Virus record (IMG/VR): IMGVR_UViG_3300005529_000094
Location: 1-25,020 of that record
Source: a virus
Length of the DNA stretch: 25,020 nt
Strand: one strand, 5' to 3'
Position numbers and translations under genes: made by a program. This document shows, piece after piece, positions 1,294 to 12,109 of this stretch. Every line of letters begins with the position of its first letter. The first letter of the stretch is position 1. The notes under the pieces were generated by a model. The model saw only the letters and a list, made by a program, of their open reading frames with translations, searched no databases and was not told the origin of the DNA.

Positions 1294-1959
1294 TCAGCCG
1301 CTTCCGAATGATTCCACGAATACGGTAAACGTGGAGGTCGTCACCACACCGGTCGATACTTTCTTGAGGCTGACGCTCACCGTGCCATGCGAGCCTCTGT
1401 CCGCGCCGGTGTTCTGGCCCACCTGCGCATCGACCGAGATCGCTCTGTTGCTGGTGCACGCTTGATAGGCGGATGCACCGTTCGTGACAGTCGCGGGGCC
1501 ACTGGCTTCCTGCGAACTCTGGTTCCAACCGAATTCGACCTGGTAGTTGGAAGCCGAATCGCCGGCCGGCAGCCAAGCGCCTGAGGTACTGCCGGAGGTG
1601 TCGGGCGAATTGCCGAGGCAGGTAAGGCTGTAGGTGCCATCCGACTTGATGGTGAGCGTGATGTTGGCATCCATCGAGCCGCTGATCAGGCCGCTGGAAC
1701 GCGCGGTAAAACTGCCGCCATCGAAAGGCAAGCCGTAGCGTGCCGTGCCGGCCGCTGCCCAGTAATTGCTCAAGTCCACGCCGCTCGCATCGCGAAAGCC
1801 GACATTCGGTCCTTTGCTGCCGTAGCTCAGCTTGGCGTACTTCAGCAGCGTGCCATCGCTCTTCTTGAAGATCGACGCCGTCGGCCCGTCGCCCTTGATG
1901 TCCGGGTCGAACAGATTCACGAAATCGGCCGCGGCGGAATTGCGGTATCCGTCAGCCAT
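1294..1959 (-). CDS. Fibre-associated virion protein (hypothetical)
   Basis: This 221-residue protein has no signal peptide or membrane segment and is rich in Gly, Ser and Thr, as expected of a beta-structured surface protein. The first third contains NLFDPDIKGDGP (about 15-26) and SYGSKGPNVGFRD (about 45-57), a pattern I associate with proteins encoded next to phage tail fibres. The rest looks like beta-strand-rich Ser/Thr sequence ending in a Val/Thr-rich segment. The start codon overlaps the stop of the fibre gene upstream by eight bases (ATGGCTGA), indicating translational coupling. It may be a fibre tip, a fibre chaperone or a second receptor-binding protein; the sequence does not choose between them. 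Confidence 0.6.
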   Translation of the reverse strand: MADGYRNSAAADFVNLFDPDIKGDGPTASIFKKSDGTLLKYAKLSYGSKGPNVGFRDASGVDLSNYWAAAGTARYGLPFDGGSFTARSSGLISGSMDANITLTIKSDGTYSLTCLGNSPDTSGSTSGAWLPAGDSASNYQVEFGWNQSSQEASGPATVTNGASAYQACTSNRAISVDAQVGQNTGADRGSHGTVSVSLKKVSTGVVTTSTFTVFVESFGSG

Positions 1960-3043
1960 CGATCCGCTCCTCGAGCTTGACCACGATCGCCGTCAGTTCC
2001 TGCACGGCCGCGATCAGCACCGGCACCAGCTCCATGTAGTTGACGGTGGGCGTGGAACCTTTCTGTTCGTACACCGCTTCCGGAATGACTTCGCGGAGCT
2101 GCTCGGCGATCACGAAGAGGTGGTCGCGGCCATCCTTGTTGAACTTTTTCTTGTAGCGGCCGCGGCGGGTTTGGATTTTCAAGAGATCCGCCAGGCCATA
2201 GCCGAGCCGGCGCAGCTTGGTCTTGATCTTGATCGAGGATCCCATCTGGAAGCCGCCGGTGGCGATCACCGCACCCGCGACGTTCATCGTGCCCGCGTTG
2301 TTGACGGTCGTTTGGCCCGTGGCGCTTCCCTCGCCGTTGGGCCGCAGGTACACCGTGCCGGCGCCGTTGGGCGCCAGCACCACCGCGCCAGTGGTGGCGG
2401 AGAAGTTCTGCTGCGCCTTGACGTCGCCGCCGGAAGTCAGCGAGCCGACATTCATCGCACCGGAATAGGTGCCGGATGCGCCATTCACTGCACCGCTGGC
2501 GGAAACCGAGGTCGGTGTGATCGCGCCCAGGGAAATGGTGATCGCCGGCGTAGTGGTCGGGTTGGCGATGCTCGCGGAAATGCCGTTCGCGCTCACTACC
2601 GAAATCGAAGTGACCGTGCCAGTGTTGGCCGTGGCGCCGGCCGCAATGCCGTCCAGCTTGGTCTTGTCCGCCGCGGACATCGAACCGGCTGCTGATTCGG
2701 TCGCAGCTGAAATGCTGATCTGCGGCGTCGCCCCGCCGGTGGAATTGATCGGCGCCACGCCGGTGACGTTGGTCACCGTGCTGCTGCCGCCACCGCCGAC
2801 TCCCGCGGCGATCATGTTGGTGATGGCATCGCGCACCTGGGTGAACGAACCCTTGTCGAGCGTCAGCCCACCGGCCGTCACGACGTTGATCAGTTCCACC
2901 ATCATGGCGTTCAAGAAATCGGCCGGAACGATCGTGGCCGGTTGGCCGGTGCCGGGATTGCCGTTGGTGAAGAAGCCCGGCGTGCCATAGGCAGACGGCG
3001 CCGGCATGGAAGCGACGGCGGTTGAAACGTCGATCTGATACAT
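1952..3043 (-). CDS. Tail fibre with C-terminal S74-type intramolecular chaperone
   Basis: This is a 363-residue tail fibre. Residues about 17-75 (GTPGFFTNGNP, then PADFLNAMMVELINVV) match the N-terminal attachment region common in myovirus fibres. Residues about 115-140 contain MSAADKTKLDGIAAGA, a widespread fibre motif. A low-complexity Gly/Ser/Thr shaft follows. Residues about 262-363 form a peptidase S74-like chaperone with the GLADLLKIQTRRGRYK and IAEQLREVIPEAV segments and a terminal helix. Such domains drive trimerisation and often cut themselves off. The Ser/Lys pair around SSIKIKTK (269-276) is not quite canonical, so cleavage is uncertain. The ribosome-binding site is AAGGAA, and a terminator lies just upstream. 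Confidence 0.85.
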   Translation of the reverse strand: MYQIDVSTAVASMPAPSAYGTPGFFTNGNPGTGQPATIVPADFLNAMMVELINVVTAGGLTLDKGSFTQVRDAITNMIAAGVGGGGSSTVTNVTGVAPINSTGGATPQISISAATESAAGSMSAADKTKLDGIAAGATANTGTVTSISVVSANGISASIANPTTTPAITISLGAITPTSVSASGAVNGASGTYSGAMNVGSLTSGGDVKAQQNFSATTGAVVLAPNGAGTVYLRPNGEGSATGQTTVNNAGTMNVAGAVIATGGFQMGSSIKIKTKLRRLGYGLADLLKIQTRRGRYKKKFNKDGRDHLFVIAEQLREVIPEAVYEQKGSTPTVNYMELVPVLIAAVQELTAIVVKLEERIDG

Positions 3044-5175: not shown

Positions 5176-7107
5176 TCACACTTGTTCGATACCGGGTTGA
5201 TTCGTGGTGCCGTCTGGATTGCCGCCGCTGCCGCCGCCGCCACCACTGATGACCGTGACGAGATGCGAGATGCTGTTGGTCGCGCCGAGGTTGTCGGTCA
5301 CCGTGAGCGTGACGGTGTAACTGCCGTTCGCCGCATAGGTGTGCGATGGATTGGTGGTGGTCGCGGTGTTGCCGTCGCCGAAGTCCCACAGGTGCGATGC
5401 GATCGTGCCGTCCGGATCGCTGGAGCCATCCACGAAGCTGGCGGTCAATCCGCTGATGCTGAAGGTGAACGCCGCGACCGGCGGCTGATTGCCGCCGCCC
5501 GAATACGTAAACGAATCCGTCGCCAGCCACAGCCGCGTGGCGATGCCGCCGGCGATCTGGATGGTCGCCGTCTCGCCGCTCTGCGCGATGCCATTGATGC
5601 GGTAGCCGTCGAATAGCGCGCCGGAACCGACCCAGCCCAGATAGGTATCCGAGCCGAAGCCGTAGTCCGTCTGCGCGGTGCCGGTCGGGACGCCATCGTT
5701 GGTATCGCCGCCGGCATACAGCACGACACCGGGCCCCGCCGTGTTGAAGGCCGGCGAGGTCAGGCTGGTGGCGTTGTACGGACCATCTGCTGCAGTGGCA
5801 TTCGGCGGCGTGGAACCGGTGGCGTCGTAAGACCACGCCGCGCTGCCCGGCGCCTGCCAGTGTTCCGCCAGTGCCGCGCTGGGCACACCCAGCGTGTGAT
5901 TGAAATTGATGGTGATGACGTTGCCGGTTTTCGCCGCGCTGGAAAGGCAGTAGAAGCACTGCGAGCGCACCCGGTGATAGGTTTCGTCCTGGAAATTGCC
6001 GGGCGTGTAAGTGTTGCCGGCGGTATCGGTGATGCTGGTGATCGAGTAGGCGCTGTCCCAGGCCACGCGCACACGGATCAGCTGGCCGGCGATGGCGTTG
6101 AAGGCACCGAGCACCAGCGTGCTGCTGGAGTAACCGGTCGTGGGCGGCGCCACCACGCGCGCCAGCAGCGTCGGTGTGCCGGTGCCGGAGGTGTCGCGCA
6201 AGCCGGCGGAGATGCCCGCCGCGGCCAGCGTCTGGTTCAAATTCTCGCGGTTGCCTTTGGCCAGCAGTGAAGCATCCGTTGCGGGCGCGAGGGTCTTGGC
6301 GACGGTTTCCGAAGTGCCCTTGCGCACGCCCGCGGAAACGGTGTCGGCGCCCAACGTCTTCGATACGGACAGGCGATCGGCATCGCTCAATGCGGCGGAG
6401 ACGGTGGCGCCGGCGAGCGTCTTGGTCAGCGCTTCGCCCGTGGTGCGGCCGATGCCAGCAGCGGCGCTGACGCCGCCCAGCCGCTGCGCGACGGCCAGGT
6501 CGTTTTCGGTGGCGACCGCCTGGATCAGCAGAATGGATTGCGCCGGCTTGATCGCCTGCAGTTCGCATTCAAGAACGTCGTTGCCCCAGTTCTCCAGCGC
6601 ATCACCGCAGGCGCTAACTCCGGCGCGGAAATACGTGATGCTTTGCAGCGGGATATCCACCGCCCAGGTAAAGGCCCAGTCCTGGCCTGCAAGCGGATCG
6701 CCCGCGTGGCTTTGCCCGCAGCGGAACGGCGCGTATTGCTTGACCGTCGCGGCGTAGCCCAGCAGCTTGGCGTAGGCGACGAAGAACGGAATCGACTGGC
6801 CGCCGCTGCCGGCCAGCCGCGCGACCACCTGCTGTCGCCGGCCTTGCAGCGTCGGCGATTCGCCGGCGCAGGGATCTGGCAAGCCGAGCGTGGCTTCCCA
6901 CTCCGGCAATAGATCCAGCGCCGTGGCGGGGAATGCATTGACCAGCAGATCGAGCCCAGCCTGCCCGCTGCGCTGGAAGCTCGGTGCGAAGCTGGCGAGC
7001 ACCTTCGCCTGCAGGCTGTCGGTATCGCGCGGCCACACCCGTCCCGGCGGCATCAACGCCTGCAAGGCGTGGGCATAGTCTTGGGTGGCGAAAACCGGCG
7101 CGGACAT
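5176..7107 (-). CDS. Mu gp48-like baseplate protein fused to repeats, beta-sandwich and PKD domain
   Basis: This 643-residue multidomain protein starts with a complete Mu gp48-type baseplate domain (1 to about 197: YAHALQALMPPGRVWPRD, LLPEWEATLGLPDPC, ALENWGNDVLECEL). Five copies of a 21-residue repeat follow (about 199-305, consensus TLAxATVSA...L-x-x-T). Next is a beta-sandwich-like region (about 310-537, with ITDTAGNTYTPGNF). After it comes a clear PKD domain (about 540-622: PPVAAFTF, DPDGTI, WDFGDGN, SHTYAANGSYTVTLTVTD). The end is a Gly-rich linker and the tail NPDGTTNQPGIEQV. Mu gp48 is only about the size of the first domain. The gene starts one base after the gp47 stop. PKD and sandwich domains bind surfaces in other proteins, so I infer a baseplate-anchored adhesin. 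Confidence 0.85.
   Translation of the reverse strand: MSAPVFATQDYAHALQALMPPGRVWPRDTDSLQAKVLASFAPSFQRSGQAGLDLLVNAFPATALDLLPEWEATLGLPDPCAGESPTLQGRRQQVVARLAGSGGQSIPFFVAYAKLLGYAATVKQYAPFRCGQSHAGDPLAGQDWAFTWAVDIPLQSITYFRAGVSACGDALENWGNDVLECELQAIKPAQSILLIQAVATENDLAVAQRLGGVSAAAGIGRTTGEALTKTLAGATVSAALSDADRLSVSKTLGADTVSAGVRKGTSETVAKTLAPATDASLLAKGNRENLNQTLAAAGISAGLRDTSGTGTPTLLARVVAPPTTGYSSSTLVLGAFNAIAGQLIRVRVAWDSAYSITSITDTAGNTYTPGNFQDETYHRVRSQCFYCLSSAAKTGNVITINFNHTLGVPSAALAEHWQAPGSAAWSYDATGSTPPNATAADGPYNATSLTSPAFNTAGPGVVLYAGGDTNDGVPTGTAQTDYGFGSDTYLGWVGSGALFDGYRINGIAQSGETATIQIAGGIATRLWLATDSFTYSGGGNQPPVAAFTFSISGLTASFVDGSSDPDGTIASHLWDFGDGNTATTTNPSHTYAANGSYTVTLTVTDNLGATNSISHLVTVISGGGGGSGGNPDGTTNQPGIEQV
6193..6513 (-). 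repeat. 21-residue (63-bp) degenerate repeat array in the gp48-type protein
   Basis: About five units are visible, with cores AQRLGGVSAAAG, KTLAGATVSAAL, KTLGADTVSAGV, KTLAPATDASLL and QTLAAAGISAGL. The period between successive TL motifs is 21 residues. The same consensus recurs in the gp46-type protein 2 kb upstream in the operon. Confidence 0.8.
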
Positions 7108-7108
7108 G

Positions 7109-8272
7109 TCAGGTGTACGTCACGGTGCCGAGCACAGGCAATTCGCCGGTGACGTTGGCGATGTTCGCTGTGGGCGACGTGATCACGAACCCGGCTGTGC
7201 CGGAGATCGCGGCGATCGCCGATTCGATCGCGGAGAGATCCACGGATGTTCCCGCGATCGGCGAGCCTTGCTCCAGGAACACCTGCTTGATCGCATCGCT
7301 GATCGCGCTGCGCACGCTGATCGGCGCCGTAGAGATGCCGCTGATGGTGAAATTGATGGTGTGCGCCGTCGGCGCGCAGACGTACACCAGCGCGGTGACG
7401 GGCTGCTTGTTGACGATCAAATCGGCAACGGTGAGCTGGTCGCCGGCCGCGACACTGCCGCGCGGCGAGCCGCCTGGACCCTGGTCATGTTGCGAAACAC
7501 CATCGGTGCCGACCGGGAACCCGTTGTTGCCGGCTTCCGCAACATCGAACATCACGTACACCACCACGGTGCCGACGCCGAAGCCGTTGGGCGCCACCCA
7601 GGCGCGCGTCACGCCGGGCACATCGAGCGCCCAGCCGATGTAGTCCTCCATGTCGCCGCCCTGCGGCGGGTTCTGGTAGGCCTGCAGCATGCGCGTGCGC
7701 AGCGAGGCATCGGTTTCGATGTCCGCACCGCCGGTCAATGCCGCAGCGACCGTGCCGGCGGATTGGATACCCGCGACGACCGATTGCAGCGTGAGGATGG
7801 TGCCGACGGGTGCATTGCCATCCGCGCCGCCGCCGGCCGGATTGTTGACCGGGTCGATGAGCGGCAGGATCGCGGTGACGGGGACCGTCACCGATCCGGA
7901 GGCAATGGTGCCGGTGGCGGTGGTCTGGTACACATAGCCATCGCCGCGCGCCAGCAGTGCGCCGGAAGGCAGCACCGCGCCGTTCGTTCCGGTGAAGGTG
8001 ACCGTGCCCGTTGCCGCCGTCGCCGGATTGCGCGTGATGCCTTTCAGCGCGGCCCAGGCCTCCAGATATTCATCGGTCGCGGTGTAGGGCACCGCCTGCA
8101 GCGCAATCCAATCCAGATAGCCGTAGTGCAGTTGCGCCAGGCCCGAGAGCACGGTGCCCAGCACGCCGAGATTGGAAAACCGCAGCAGGCCATCCGCGCC
8201 GGGCACACCGGAAGAAATATCCGCCGAAGTCTGCGCGCGCAGATCGGAAAGTGAGGGACGCTGGAAAGGCAT
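7109..8272 (-). CDS. Mu gp47-like baseplate wedge protein (J-like family)
   Basis: The 387-residue protein matches the baseplate J/Mu gp47 family, which builds the wedges that trigger sheath contraction. Recognisable parts are the N-terminal [15 protein letters not shown] (5-19), [19 protein letters not shown] (about 63-81), the strand-rich [16 protein letters not shown] region, the [19 protein letters not shown] segment (about 188-206) and [12 protein letters not shown] (about 219-230). The C-terminal half ([24 protein letters not shown]) has the usual helix followed by beta structure. The start lies 15 bases after the stop of the gp46-type gene, and the gp48-type gene follows with a one-base gap, so the gene order 46-47-48 is the Mu order. 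Confidence 0.92.
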
Positions 8273-8287
8273 CGATGCGGATCCCGA

Positions 8288-11032
8288 TCAGTTGAGCTGA
8301 TTCCACGCCCAGTTGAAATTGAGCGACTGCCGCGCGCCGTTGACGCGCAGGATTTCCACCGTGGCGTTGAGCCGGTTCGGCATCACGATCGAGGTGGTGA
8401 TATTCACGCTCGCGGCGACGCCGTCGCTGAGCATCCAGGCCAGCGCTTCGGCGATGTAGCCTTTTGCCGTCAGTGCGACCGAAGGCATGAGCTTGGAGCG
8501 CGACAGCAGCCACAGGCGCGAGCCGATCGGCACGTCCTGATCCAGATCGCCCCACCAGCCCCGGCGGTCGTTGGAGGCGGGATCGGGCAATACGTCGTCC
8601 GCATTGGCCAGCCGGTCGGTGAAGAGACTGATCAGCACCGCGGTGGTGAGATCATCGCCGCTGGCCAGCGCCGCGTTGCGCAATTGCCAGTCGCCACGGA
8701 TATTGGCGACATCCCAGAACGTGGTGATGTCGCCCGGCGGCAACGTGCTCAAACGCCCCACGGGCTTGGATGGAAATAGCACGCTCTTGGAAGCCGCGCC
8801 GCCCAGCGTTTGTGTCACGCCCAGCGGATTGACCACCGTCTGCTGCACCACCGCGCTGGCGCTCGCCGGCGCCAGGGTTTGGGTGAGGCTTTCTCCCGCC
8901 GCCTGATGCAGCGTGGCAGCACTCGTTGCCGGCGCCAGCGTCTCGTTGACCGAGGCGCCTGAATCCTGTTTGAAGGCGGAGGAACCGGTTGCGGGTGCCA
9001 GCGTATGCGTGGAAGAAAGCGCGTGCCCTTCCGTATCCACCGCGGTGAGGGCGGCGCCGGCGAGCGCGCTCGTTTCCGAGAGCTTGCGGCCTTCGACTTC
9101 GGTGATGTGAGGAGTGACGCCGCCGAGCGTTTCATCCACACCGTAGCTGGTGACAAACTGGCCTGCTAAAAAGGCCTGCCGGATCGACTGCATGGTGCGG
9201 ATGGACGTGACGCCCATCTCGCCGCCGGAGGTGTCGTTGGTGCGGAACACGATGCCGGCGATCGAGAAATCCTTCTTGATCCAGACCACCGTTCCGTAGG
9301 TGCCGGCCATCCAGAAATCGCCGGTGACGGGCTCGATCCACATCGCCCATTCGTGCTTCCAAGGTTCGTTCGCCGGCGCCGGCGAAGAGAATACGCTGCC
9401 ATCGGTGAAGTAGGCCGAGGCGTTGACCGGAACCCAGGAAGGCGATTCCAATAATGCGCGGTAGGCTGCGAAGGTGTTGTTCAATATCTGCTGCGCGATC
9501 GCGCGCAGCACGGCTGGCGTGCAGTCCACGCCACCCGCCGGCATGGGCGAGGAAAGCTGGAGCTGGGTGACGCTGAACGTGGCGCGGTATTCGGCGGCGA
9601 TTGCCGAACGGGTATCGCTGCCGTGGCTGGGCGAGAGTACCTTGTCCATGTGGTACTGCTCGTGCGCCGAGTCGTACGAGAAGATACCGACGTGCGCCGG
9701 ATTCAGCGCGCCGTACGGGAACCCGCCCGTGCCCACGGTCAGCAGGCATTGATCCACGGTTTGCGTGGCGCTCTGCTGACACTTCTGGCCCTGCATCAAA
9801 TCGTGGCCGGAGGTGTGCGTGAAAAACGGATAATCGGCTGCGCCCAGCGTGAAATTCTGCGCCGCCCAGATCGCGTACACCGTCTTGGAAACCGATGCGA
9901 CCGCCGCTTGCGTCGTCACCGTCGGCGCGCTGGCGCTGCCGAAGCTGCCGGACCACAACACCGTGTCGGCGGTGAATATCTCGCCGTAGAAATCCGTGCC
10001 GCCGTTGGCGATGTCGTGATTGGCGGCGGATGTGGCCGCGGCCTGGGACTGGACGAGTGGAATGTCCGACCAGGCGGCGGCAACCGACGCGGGCGCGAGC
10101 GTCTTGTTGAGCGATTCGCTCTCCGTTTTCAGATCGGATTCGCCGGCGCTGAGCGATGCTGGAGCGAGTGCGCTGGTCTCGGAAAGTTTGCGGCCTTGCT
10201 TTTCCGCCGCGGAGACCGTGGCGCCAGTGAGCGCGCTGGTTTCGTTGAGTTTCCTCCCTTCGGTCTCCGCTGCGCTGACGGTCGCCGCACCCAGAGTGTC
10301 CGTGCCGCTGAGCTTGCGGCCTTCGGTTTCCGCCGCGCTGACCGTGGCACTGCCGAGCGCATCCGTCGCGCTGTAGCTTTCCAGCGGTGTGTAGGTGATG
10401 ACGATGACGCCGGCGCGGCCCGCACCGGAATTGTGCCCGCTGCGAGCGCCGCCGCCGCCGCCGCCGTACTGCCCGCCGGCGGCGCCATCGCCCGTGGCCG
10501 AAGCGCCGCCACCGCCGCCGGAACCGGCCGTGCCCCATTCCGTGCCCGAGCTGCCCGGCAGCGATGCGGTGCCGCCCGCACCGCCGAATCCGGCATCGCC
10601 GGAACCACCCGTGGCGCCACTGGTGCTGGCATTGCCGGGACCATTGGGTCCGCCTGCGCCGCCACCGCCGCTGGCCGTGCCCGTGGGGTTGCCACCGCCT
10701 GCATTGACTGTGCTGCCGACGCTGGCGGAGGTTGCCGAGCCTCCGCCTCTTGCAAGCACGGTACTGGTCGAATTGAACCAGGTGTCGCCGCCGGCATTGG
10801 GCGTTGCGTTTGCGGTTGCTGAGCCGCCGACGCCCAAATGATAGGTAACGTTGGCGCCAGGCGTCAGCGCGAGGTTGACGATCTTGGCGTAATCGCCGCC
10901 GGCGCCACCGTTGGTATTGGTCGCGATCCAGCCGGATTGTCCACCACCGATGCACTCGATGGTGTTGGCGGCGTTGTTCCAGTCAGCAGGAACCGTCCAC
11001 GACGAGCCGGTCGTCAGGATGATCTGGGCCAC
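8288..11032 (-). CDS. Giant baseplate fusion: Gly-rich domain, repeats, SxxK hydrolase-like domain, Mu gp46 domain
   Basis: This 914-residue protein has five visible parts. Residues 1 to about 215 are a tail-fibre-type Gly-rich domain (start [18 protein letters not shown]). Residues about 219-323 are five 21-residue repeats ([13 protein letters not shown]). Residues about 340-600 resemble the serine beta-lactamase/DD-peptidase fold: [12 protein letters not shown] with S380-x-x-K383, FSYDSAH with Y453-D-S455, [10 protein letters not shown] (497-506) and GTYGTVVWI (577-585). Six more repeats follow (about 630-750). Residues about 765-914 are the Mu gp46 baseplate domain ([30 protein letters not shown]). 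Mu gp46 alone is only about the size of the last domain. No separate gp46 start is apparent. I infer a baseplate protein displaying an envelope-acting hydrolase; the domain calls at both ends are firm, the enzyme call is moderate. Confidence 0.82.
8753..9145 (-). repeat. Second half of the 21-residue repeat array in the gp46 fusion
   Basis: About six units lie at residues 630-760, with cores [70 protein letters not shown] and [12 protein letters not shown]. Spacing is 21 to 23 residues. The unit [15 protein letters not shown] closely matches units of the first half. Confidence 0.8.
10064..10378 (-). repeat. First half of the 21-residue repeat array in the gp46 fusion
   Basis: About five units lie at residues 219-323: [65 protein letters not shown] and [14 protein letters not shown]. 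The first three repeat exactly every 21 residues and are also clearly alike at DNA level. The array is interrupted after the fifth unit by the hydrolase-like domain. Confidence 0.85.
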
Positions 11033-11053: not shown

Positions 11054-11458
11054 TCAACCGTTGGCTTCGTTGAGCGTGAAGCTCGTGACCGTTTCGGTGT
11101 CGCCGCTGCCGACGGTGGTGCTGGTGGCGATCATGTCGCCGCCGCCGCCGCTGGCGGTGATCGTGCCCTGGATGTGGCAGGTGGTGCCGGTGGAATCGTA
11201 GATGCGGAAATAACCCGCGGTGCCGGCGGCCGATGCGGTGCTGGTCCAGGTGCCGGACATGGACTTCGAATCGCCGGACGCGCCCGCCATCCAATCCGAC
11301 GGCAACGTCATGGTGTCCAGCAGCGTGCCGGTGGCCGCGGCGGCGCAGTTGGCCGGCACGGAACCGGTATAGATCTTCAGCAGCGGCGCGGTGCCGATTG
11401 TGCTCTCGATGACATCGAGGCGAGCATTGCGGACGGCATCGGAAAATTGCAGGGCCAT
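11054..11458 (-). CDS. Conserved small phage virion-type protein, function unknown
   Basis: The 134-residue protein begins MALQFSDAVRNARLDVIES and contains LLKIYTGSVPANCAAA (about 26-41), LPSDWMAGASGDSKSMSG (about 53-70), AGYFRIYDSTGTTCHIQGT (about 81-99) and a C-terminal ETVTSFTLNEANG. I recognise this as a protein often found near tail-fibre and baseplate genes in tailed phages, with no assigned function. It is strand-rich, with no membrane or signal segment. AAGGAAG precedes the ATG. The gene sits behind the terminator at 11481-11510 and 22 bases ahead of the giant gp46 fusion. Confidence 0.7.
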   Translation of the reverse strand: MALQFSDAVRNARLDVIESTIGTAPLLKIYTGSVPANCAAAATGTLLDTMTLPSDWMAGASGDSKSMSGTWTSTASAAGTAGYFRIYDSTGTTCHIQGTITASGGGGDMIATSTTVGSGDTETVTSFTLNEANG

Positions 11459-11533: not shown

Positions 11534-12109
11534 TTACTGCTGCGGGTTGGGCGGATGCGTCACGGCATCGAGCGGATGCCCGTGCTCGTTGTAGAGATCG
11601 CGCATGTTCTTGACCGTGTGCGACTGGCTATCGCAGTTGTCGATGATGTCGCCGGTGCATTCCAGGCGCGGGGTGACGCAGCGGATCTTCGAGGAGGCGT
11701 TGATCGTCACCTGCGTGGCGTTGTTAACTACCACGGGGCCGTTCTTCGCATCGATCTCGATCGAGCCGTCCGCTTTCAGATAGACGTGCTTGCCCCACAG
11801 GTCGTAGAGCATTGCCTCGCCTTCGGCGAGATTCTTCGGCCGACTTGGCTGGTGACCGGTGGCTATCACCACGCCGTTCGATCGATCGCCGGCGATGAAC
11901 ACCAGCACTACATCCGACTGCGCAGGCGGCCGCGAGGTGAAACCGAACTCGGCCAGGCGCGGCGTACCATCGCGCAGCTCACCCCAGTTCACCTGGGCCT
12001 GAATCTTTTGCACCGTGCCGGTGTCGTCGCTCGCAGTGACGCGTGCGCGCGCGACGGTGAGCTGTATGCGCCGCCAGAACTGCCGCGCAAATCCGGCAAG
12101 ATCGCTCAT
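11534..12109 (-). CDS. Mu gp45-like baseplate spike protein
   Basis: This 191-residue protein is the central membrane-piercing spike of the contractile tail. The N-terminal region [22 protein letters not shown] leads into an OB-like part (about 30-95) with [22 protein letters not shown] and [27 protein letters not shown]. This is the Mu gp45 signature that docks on the hub. The later part ([27 protein letters not shown]) has the alternating strand pattern of a beta-helix spike. The C-terminus holds [12 protein letters not shown], whose HxH and further His recall the metal-binding spike tip. The start overlaps the P stop by four bases (ATGA). Confidence 0.9.

Follow-up and report, generated by a model that had tools for sequence, protein, structure and literature searches.

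In the solved simple baseplates of phages Mu and E217 the fibres dock on a peripheral wedge protein (PMC11915804, PMC10329688), and for E217 a pull by the fibre has been proposed as the trigger of contraction (PMC10329688). In Mu there is one gp46 per wedge, six in all, located at the corner of the tube initiator and the sheath, where it starts sheath assembly through a two-stranded sheet that attaches to the first sheath ring, and gp48 lies at the periphery, where the fibres dock (PMC11915804). A fibre with a characterised receptor-binding part is that of Pam3, in which TNF-like and Gly-rich domains are described as responsible for host receptor recognition (PMC9608196). The first-pass annotation of the locus analysed here was right to describe Mu gp46, which has 145 aa, as a small, stand-alone protein present in six copies. 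We report a gp46 in which this domain is instead preceded by 765 residues in the same reading frame, and we propose that these residues form an arm on the baseplate.

The window, by which we mean the entire linear IMG/VR record IMGVR_UViG_3300005529_000094 (25,020 bases), carries on its minus strand genes for a portal, an S49 peptidase, a decoration protein, capsid E, tail sheath, tape measure, a DNA-circularisation N/hub protein, gp44, gp45, a 134-aa protein, the fusion, gp47 and gp48, with an unassigned 564-aa gene, a tail fibre and a D12 methyltransferase at the end of the set. Every head, tail or baseplate gene included in the scan is an open frame and matches its family normally. The baseplate order is gp44-gp45-134 aa-fusion-gp47-gp48, all on the minus strand, with the gp45 spike at 11534..12109 (Pfam/family match), the 134-aa gene (PHROG 3758, ‘virion structural protein’) at 11054..11458, the Baseplate_J wedge protein gp47 at 7109..8272 (family match) and gp48 at 5176..7107; the fusion thus keeps the gp46 place between gp45 and gp47, and the gene order is that of Mu apart from the 134-aa insert. 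The separate tail fibre (1952..3043, minus) has a weak S74 chaperone match at its end, and its first ~195 residues are 71% identical to the fibre of L043, the closest relative of the window. Adjoining gp48, the 564-aa protein (5168-3474, minus) has no match in Pfam or PHROG; by eye its sequence is repetitive and beta-helix-like, and it has a signal-peptide-like start, although a virion protein would not be expected to have a signal peptide. Positions 1-60 of the window resemble by eye a partial tRNA gene, a possible attachment site; ARAGORN predicts no tRNA there, and a gene at this position would be cut off at the contig end.

The fusion gene (8288..11032, minus strand) runs from a GTG at 11032 through 914 codons with zero internal stops. 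Its start is bounded by an in-frame TGA six codons upstream of the GTG, has a GGGAG motif 6 nt before it and is located 21 nt downstream of the preceding gene, and this far 5' start is the only place in the gene with a Shine-Dalgarno sequence. Codon usage, scored as log-likelihood per codon with the other tail genes of the window as the training set, supports the same frame in each of the five parts of the gene (0.34 for the Gly-rich domain, 0.26 for the first repeats, 0.31 for the middle domain, 0.22 for the second repeats and 0.43 for gp46), and in all five the next best competing frame scores about zero or negative. The first-pass reading of a one-frame fusion with gp46 at its C-terminus is borne out at the sequence level; its description of the protein as giant is not, as 914 aa is large for a gp46 and hardly giant. 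For the gp46 family a small size is usual rather than defining.

The identity of the C-terminal part is clear from several sources. The complete gp46 (BW1) domain spans residues 766-914 (8291..8737, minus) and matches PF07409 at residues 795-900 (E 1.6e-32; 111.9 bits against a curated cut-off of 28.6), the baseplate wedge family PHROG 180 at residues 768-913 (E 3e-47) and the sequence of Mu gp46 (PDB 9ki1) with an E of 6e-25, which becomes 8.9e-42 when the gp46 profile A5 is compared with the PDB. The C-terminal 147 residues of the fusion are homologous to Mu gp46 over its full length, and Mu gp46 is the top match by fold as well, since an AlphaFold model of residues 690-914 has 9ki1_A as its best Foldseek hit (E 1.6e-6); the alignment given to the model contained gp46 relatives, so that the fold match is not independent of the sequence. 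In the model the residues N-terminal to the domain are of low confidence and lack secondary structure. A close stand-alone relative begins with MSDITT, and the fusion has PGDITT at the same site.

At the other end of the protein, the Gly-rich domain (residues 1-217; 10382..11032, minus) matches PF21722 at residues 10-214 with an E of 5.8e-6. A profile built from this domain and nine viral relatives was compared with 177,635 PDB sequences, and the sole matches were the entries of the Pam3 tail fibre gp24 (PDB 7yfw, 7ypx; E 1.6e-5), the alignment covering profile positions 4-192 and spanning both the TNF-like start and the Gly-rich part of the receptor-binding region. We take the distal part of the fusion to be a domain of the fibre-tip type and a putative receptor binder, which this similarity supports. 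Its setting differs from that in Pam3: there the domain forms the C-terminal end of a fibre that is trimeric and docks through N-terminal helices, and in the fusion it forms the N-terminus of a wedge protein. The same type of domain occurs in many other viral tail proteins that have no gp46. At another locus (L186:6204-7133, plus), a gene that follows the baseplate genes encodes a separate, fibre-like protein with a C-terminal Gly-rich domain, which by eye resembles that of the fusion.

Between the two ends lie 11 repeats of about 21 residues and a middle domain. Five of the repeats precede the middle domain (residues 218-322; 10067..10381, minus) and six, with a linker, follow it (residues 631-765; 8738..9142, minus). 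They are spaced 21-23 residues apart, and a chain equal to theirs was obtained in 0 of 2000 shuffles. The Gly-rich domain and the exact repeat count of the first-pass annotation both stand. Its ‘hydrolase-like’ label for the middle domain (residues 323-630, ~300 residues; 9143..10066, minus) fared less well. This domain has no match in Pfam (even at E 10), NCBIfam or PDB sequences, no relatives in viral contigs or, at E 1, in phages or plasmids, and only scraps at E > 0.02 in about 700 genomes of the order and phylum; its AlphaFold model, made from the single sequence as there were no relatives to align, has a pLDDT of 31.5 and is unusable. A custom PF00144 profile of 30 proteins from five genomes, applied unguided, places SVSK (residues 380-383; 9884..9895, minus) on the catalytic SxxK and AGGV on AGGI in the right order, with a weak score of 8.5 bits. 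This exceeds all shuffles, but four of 2724 arbitrary frames reached a similar or higher score, each of them on one segment away from the SxxK. A serine beta-lactamase-like hydrolase is the candidate assignment of the middle domain, to which we give an even chance at best.

The nearest gp46 proteins, 82% identical to that of the window, are encoded by L042 and L043, two IMG/VR contigs that apparently represent one phage type. Their gp46 is 205 aa long, directly follows the same 134-aa gene (74% identical in L042), lacks the usual MSDITT start and begins, in frame with the domain, with two repeats of the same type; in L042 a single frame that opens with an ATG covers both the repeat extension and gp46, and there is no start at the usual site. 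On their own the L042 repeats are a modest match, a two-unit chain being reached by 28 of 2000 shuffles, and their kinship with the repeats of the fusion rests on synteny and alignment. Among the loci retrieved, the 134-aa PHROG 3758 gene is common to the window and these two contigs only and seems to accompany the repeat-gp46. A sequencing frameshift that joined two genes, raised in the first-pass annotation as a possible artefact, is unlikely given the repeat-gp46 fusion of L042 and L043 and the even coding signal of the window gene. L042 and L043 differ from the window: they have just two repeats, lack the Gly-rich and middle domains, and have a gp48 of normal size. The gp48 of L043 has 198 aa (67% identical), and a PKD domain is found there in a gene of its own, whereas the gp48 of the window is extended to 643 aa compared with about 198, its gp48 domain being followed by five repeats of the same 21-residue type as in the fusion, ~230 unassigned residues and a fused PKD domain. 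Two wedge proteins of the window phage, gp46 and gp48, are thus extended with the same type of linker. L003 (78% identical) has a gp46 that stands alone and starts at an ATG of its own; in the other relatives retrieved gp46 is likewise of ordinary size. The prophage of Rhodanobacter sp. B04, too, has a gp46 of the ordinary stand-alone kind.

The closest cellular relative is in a Rhodanobacter genome, and samples of 398, 398 and 369 genomes from the order, phylum and class of that genome, some of them shared between samples, were surveyed for gp46. They yielded 36 different frames above the Pfam cut-off, 34 of which are 117-238 aa long. Only two exceed 300 residues, and both are also above the 400 residues that the first-pass annotation had set for such a search: G460 (1030 aa after the ATG; L105:6060-2968, minus) and G1066 (428 aa; L106:3057-4343, plus). 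Both belong to prophages of bacterial genomes, and each lies inside a complete gp44-gp45-gp46-gp47-gp48 order and, like the fusion, has a large module N-terminal to gp46. In G460 this module contains LamG-type domains and is related to tail fibres annotated as such, among them the fibre of RcapMu, and in G1066 it is a ~300-residue module in which no domain was recognised. They differ from the fusion in that the module is set between a gp46-like beginning of eight residues (MTDFALIQ, MSDIALIR) and the gp46 core, and in that no 21-residue repeats or Gly-rich domain were recognised. These cases support the view that unrelated phages have placed fibre modules on gp46 independently. A diverse profile retrieved 80 viral gp46 loci, none of which is a clear fusion, and the 914-aa architecture itself was found in no other record. 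Several gp46 frames of 202-376 aa (L184, L162, L157, L095, L083 and others) are not fusions, as they have a start codon or a normal-size domain at the usual place and their upstream translation is out-of-frame text rich in Arg and His; G356 (a 2066-aa frame) and G420 are weak matches under the Pfam cut-off. The literature searched, which covered few subscription journals, contained no report of a gp46 fusion.

We propose that the fusion is probably a single wedge protein in which gp46 takes the normal BW1 place and the N-terminal part forms an outward arm with a receptor-binding tip, a reading that we consider the best one and well supported by the gene and domain comparisons. The gp46 domain would sit at its usual baseplate position in six copies per tail, and the N-terminal 765 residues would project outwards with the repeats as spacers and the TNF-like/Gly-rich, fibre-type receptor-binding domain at the far end; the middle domain might be a serine hydrolase that trims surface material, although any enzymatic activity in the arm is speculative. 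Six arms would emerge near the sheath if the fusion assembles in the way that Mu gp46 does. Such an arm would have originated by insertion of a tail-protein module and the 134-aa gene between gp45 and gp46, with gp46 losing its own start, the order of these steps being something that we infer. Fibre-type modules on gp46 in both G460 and the window argue that the gp46 N-terminus is accessible. The retained fibre gene implies that the arm is additional to, rather than a replacement for, the conventional fibre, and we assume that the two would work alongside each other; the first-pass proposal of a different mode of attachment holds in that a fibre-type module is present on gp46, and it fails in that separate fibres are kept. 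The arm is fused to gp46, in which it also differs from a gp49-type fibre, a protein in its own right whose N-terminus docks on gp48. Several points count against the arm. Mu gp46 is at the tube-sheath corner and not at the periphery, so that the arm must thread outwards; the Gly-rich fibre domain of Pam3 is trimeric and gp46 is present once per wedge; and fibre tips are normally C-terminal, whereas the tip proposed here would be N-terminal. The lack of a second record with this 914-aa architecture also counts against it.

Internal initiation or proteolysis could yield a gp46 of normal size and leave residues 1-765 as a separate tail protein, released or attached elsewhere, and this would be in keeping with the stand-alone gp46 of L003, with the Gly-rich modules found elsewhere as separate tail proteins and with the TTG/GTG codons just upstream of the gp46 domain (residues 758-764). 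However, residues 615-799 contain no in-frame ATG, no GTG/TTG codon in that stretch is preceded by a Shine-Dalgarno sequence, no protease-type domain was recognised in the fusion by a Pfam scan, and in L042 the repeats and gp46 share an ATG-started frame from which the usual start is absent. The internal start that the first-pass annotation had asked about finds no support in these features, and we regard a separately produced gp46 as unlikely.

Alternatively, the arm could be part of the virion as a structural or decorative extension, or only as a tool that degrades the envelope, as might be expected from an SxxK in a beta-lactamase-like context within the middle domain and from the extension of gp48, which consists in part of the same repeats and a PKD domain; the specific similarity of the N-terminal domain to the receptor-binding part of the Pam3 fibre, and the kinship of the G460 module with annotated tail fibres, make this somewhat less likely still. 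That the fusion is a recent and non-functional product of a decaying prophage is very improbable, since the scanned head, tail and baseplate genes are open with normal matches and the coding signal is even over all 914 codons, although the exact architecture is unique to this record and the record is a linear 25 kb contig.

The fusion suggests that a baseplate can itself bear host-binding arms, with no separate fibre protein as the carrier, and the most interesting aspect of the finding is that such fusions recur among unrelated phages. If the outward arm that we propose is correct, it would be covalently joined to the sheath-nucleating protein, giving a shorter route from host contact to contraction, and gp46 would be a second attachment point on which modules are exchangeable by gene fusion. 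As a tentative and rather doubtful extension, gp46 (BW1) may recur in Mu-like phages as a second docking point, with receptor-binding and enzymatic arms fused to its N-terminus, such that host sensing is linked covalently to the subunit that nucleates the sheath and could set off contraction with no fibre docked. The presence of modules on gp46 in at least three lineages makes the idea testable. More generally, determinants of host range can be concealed behind an automatic ‘gp46’ or ‘baseplate wedge’ label.
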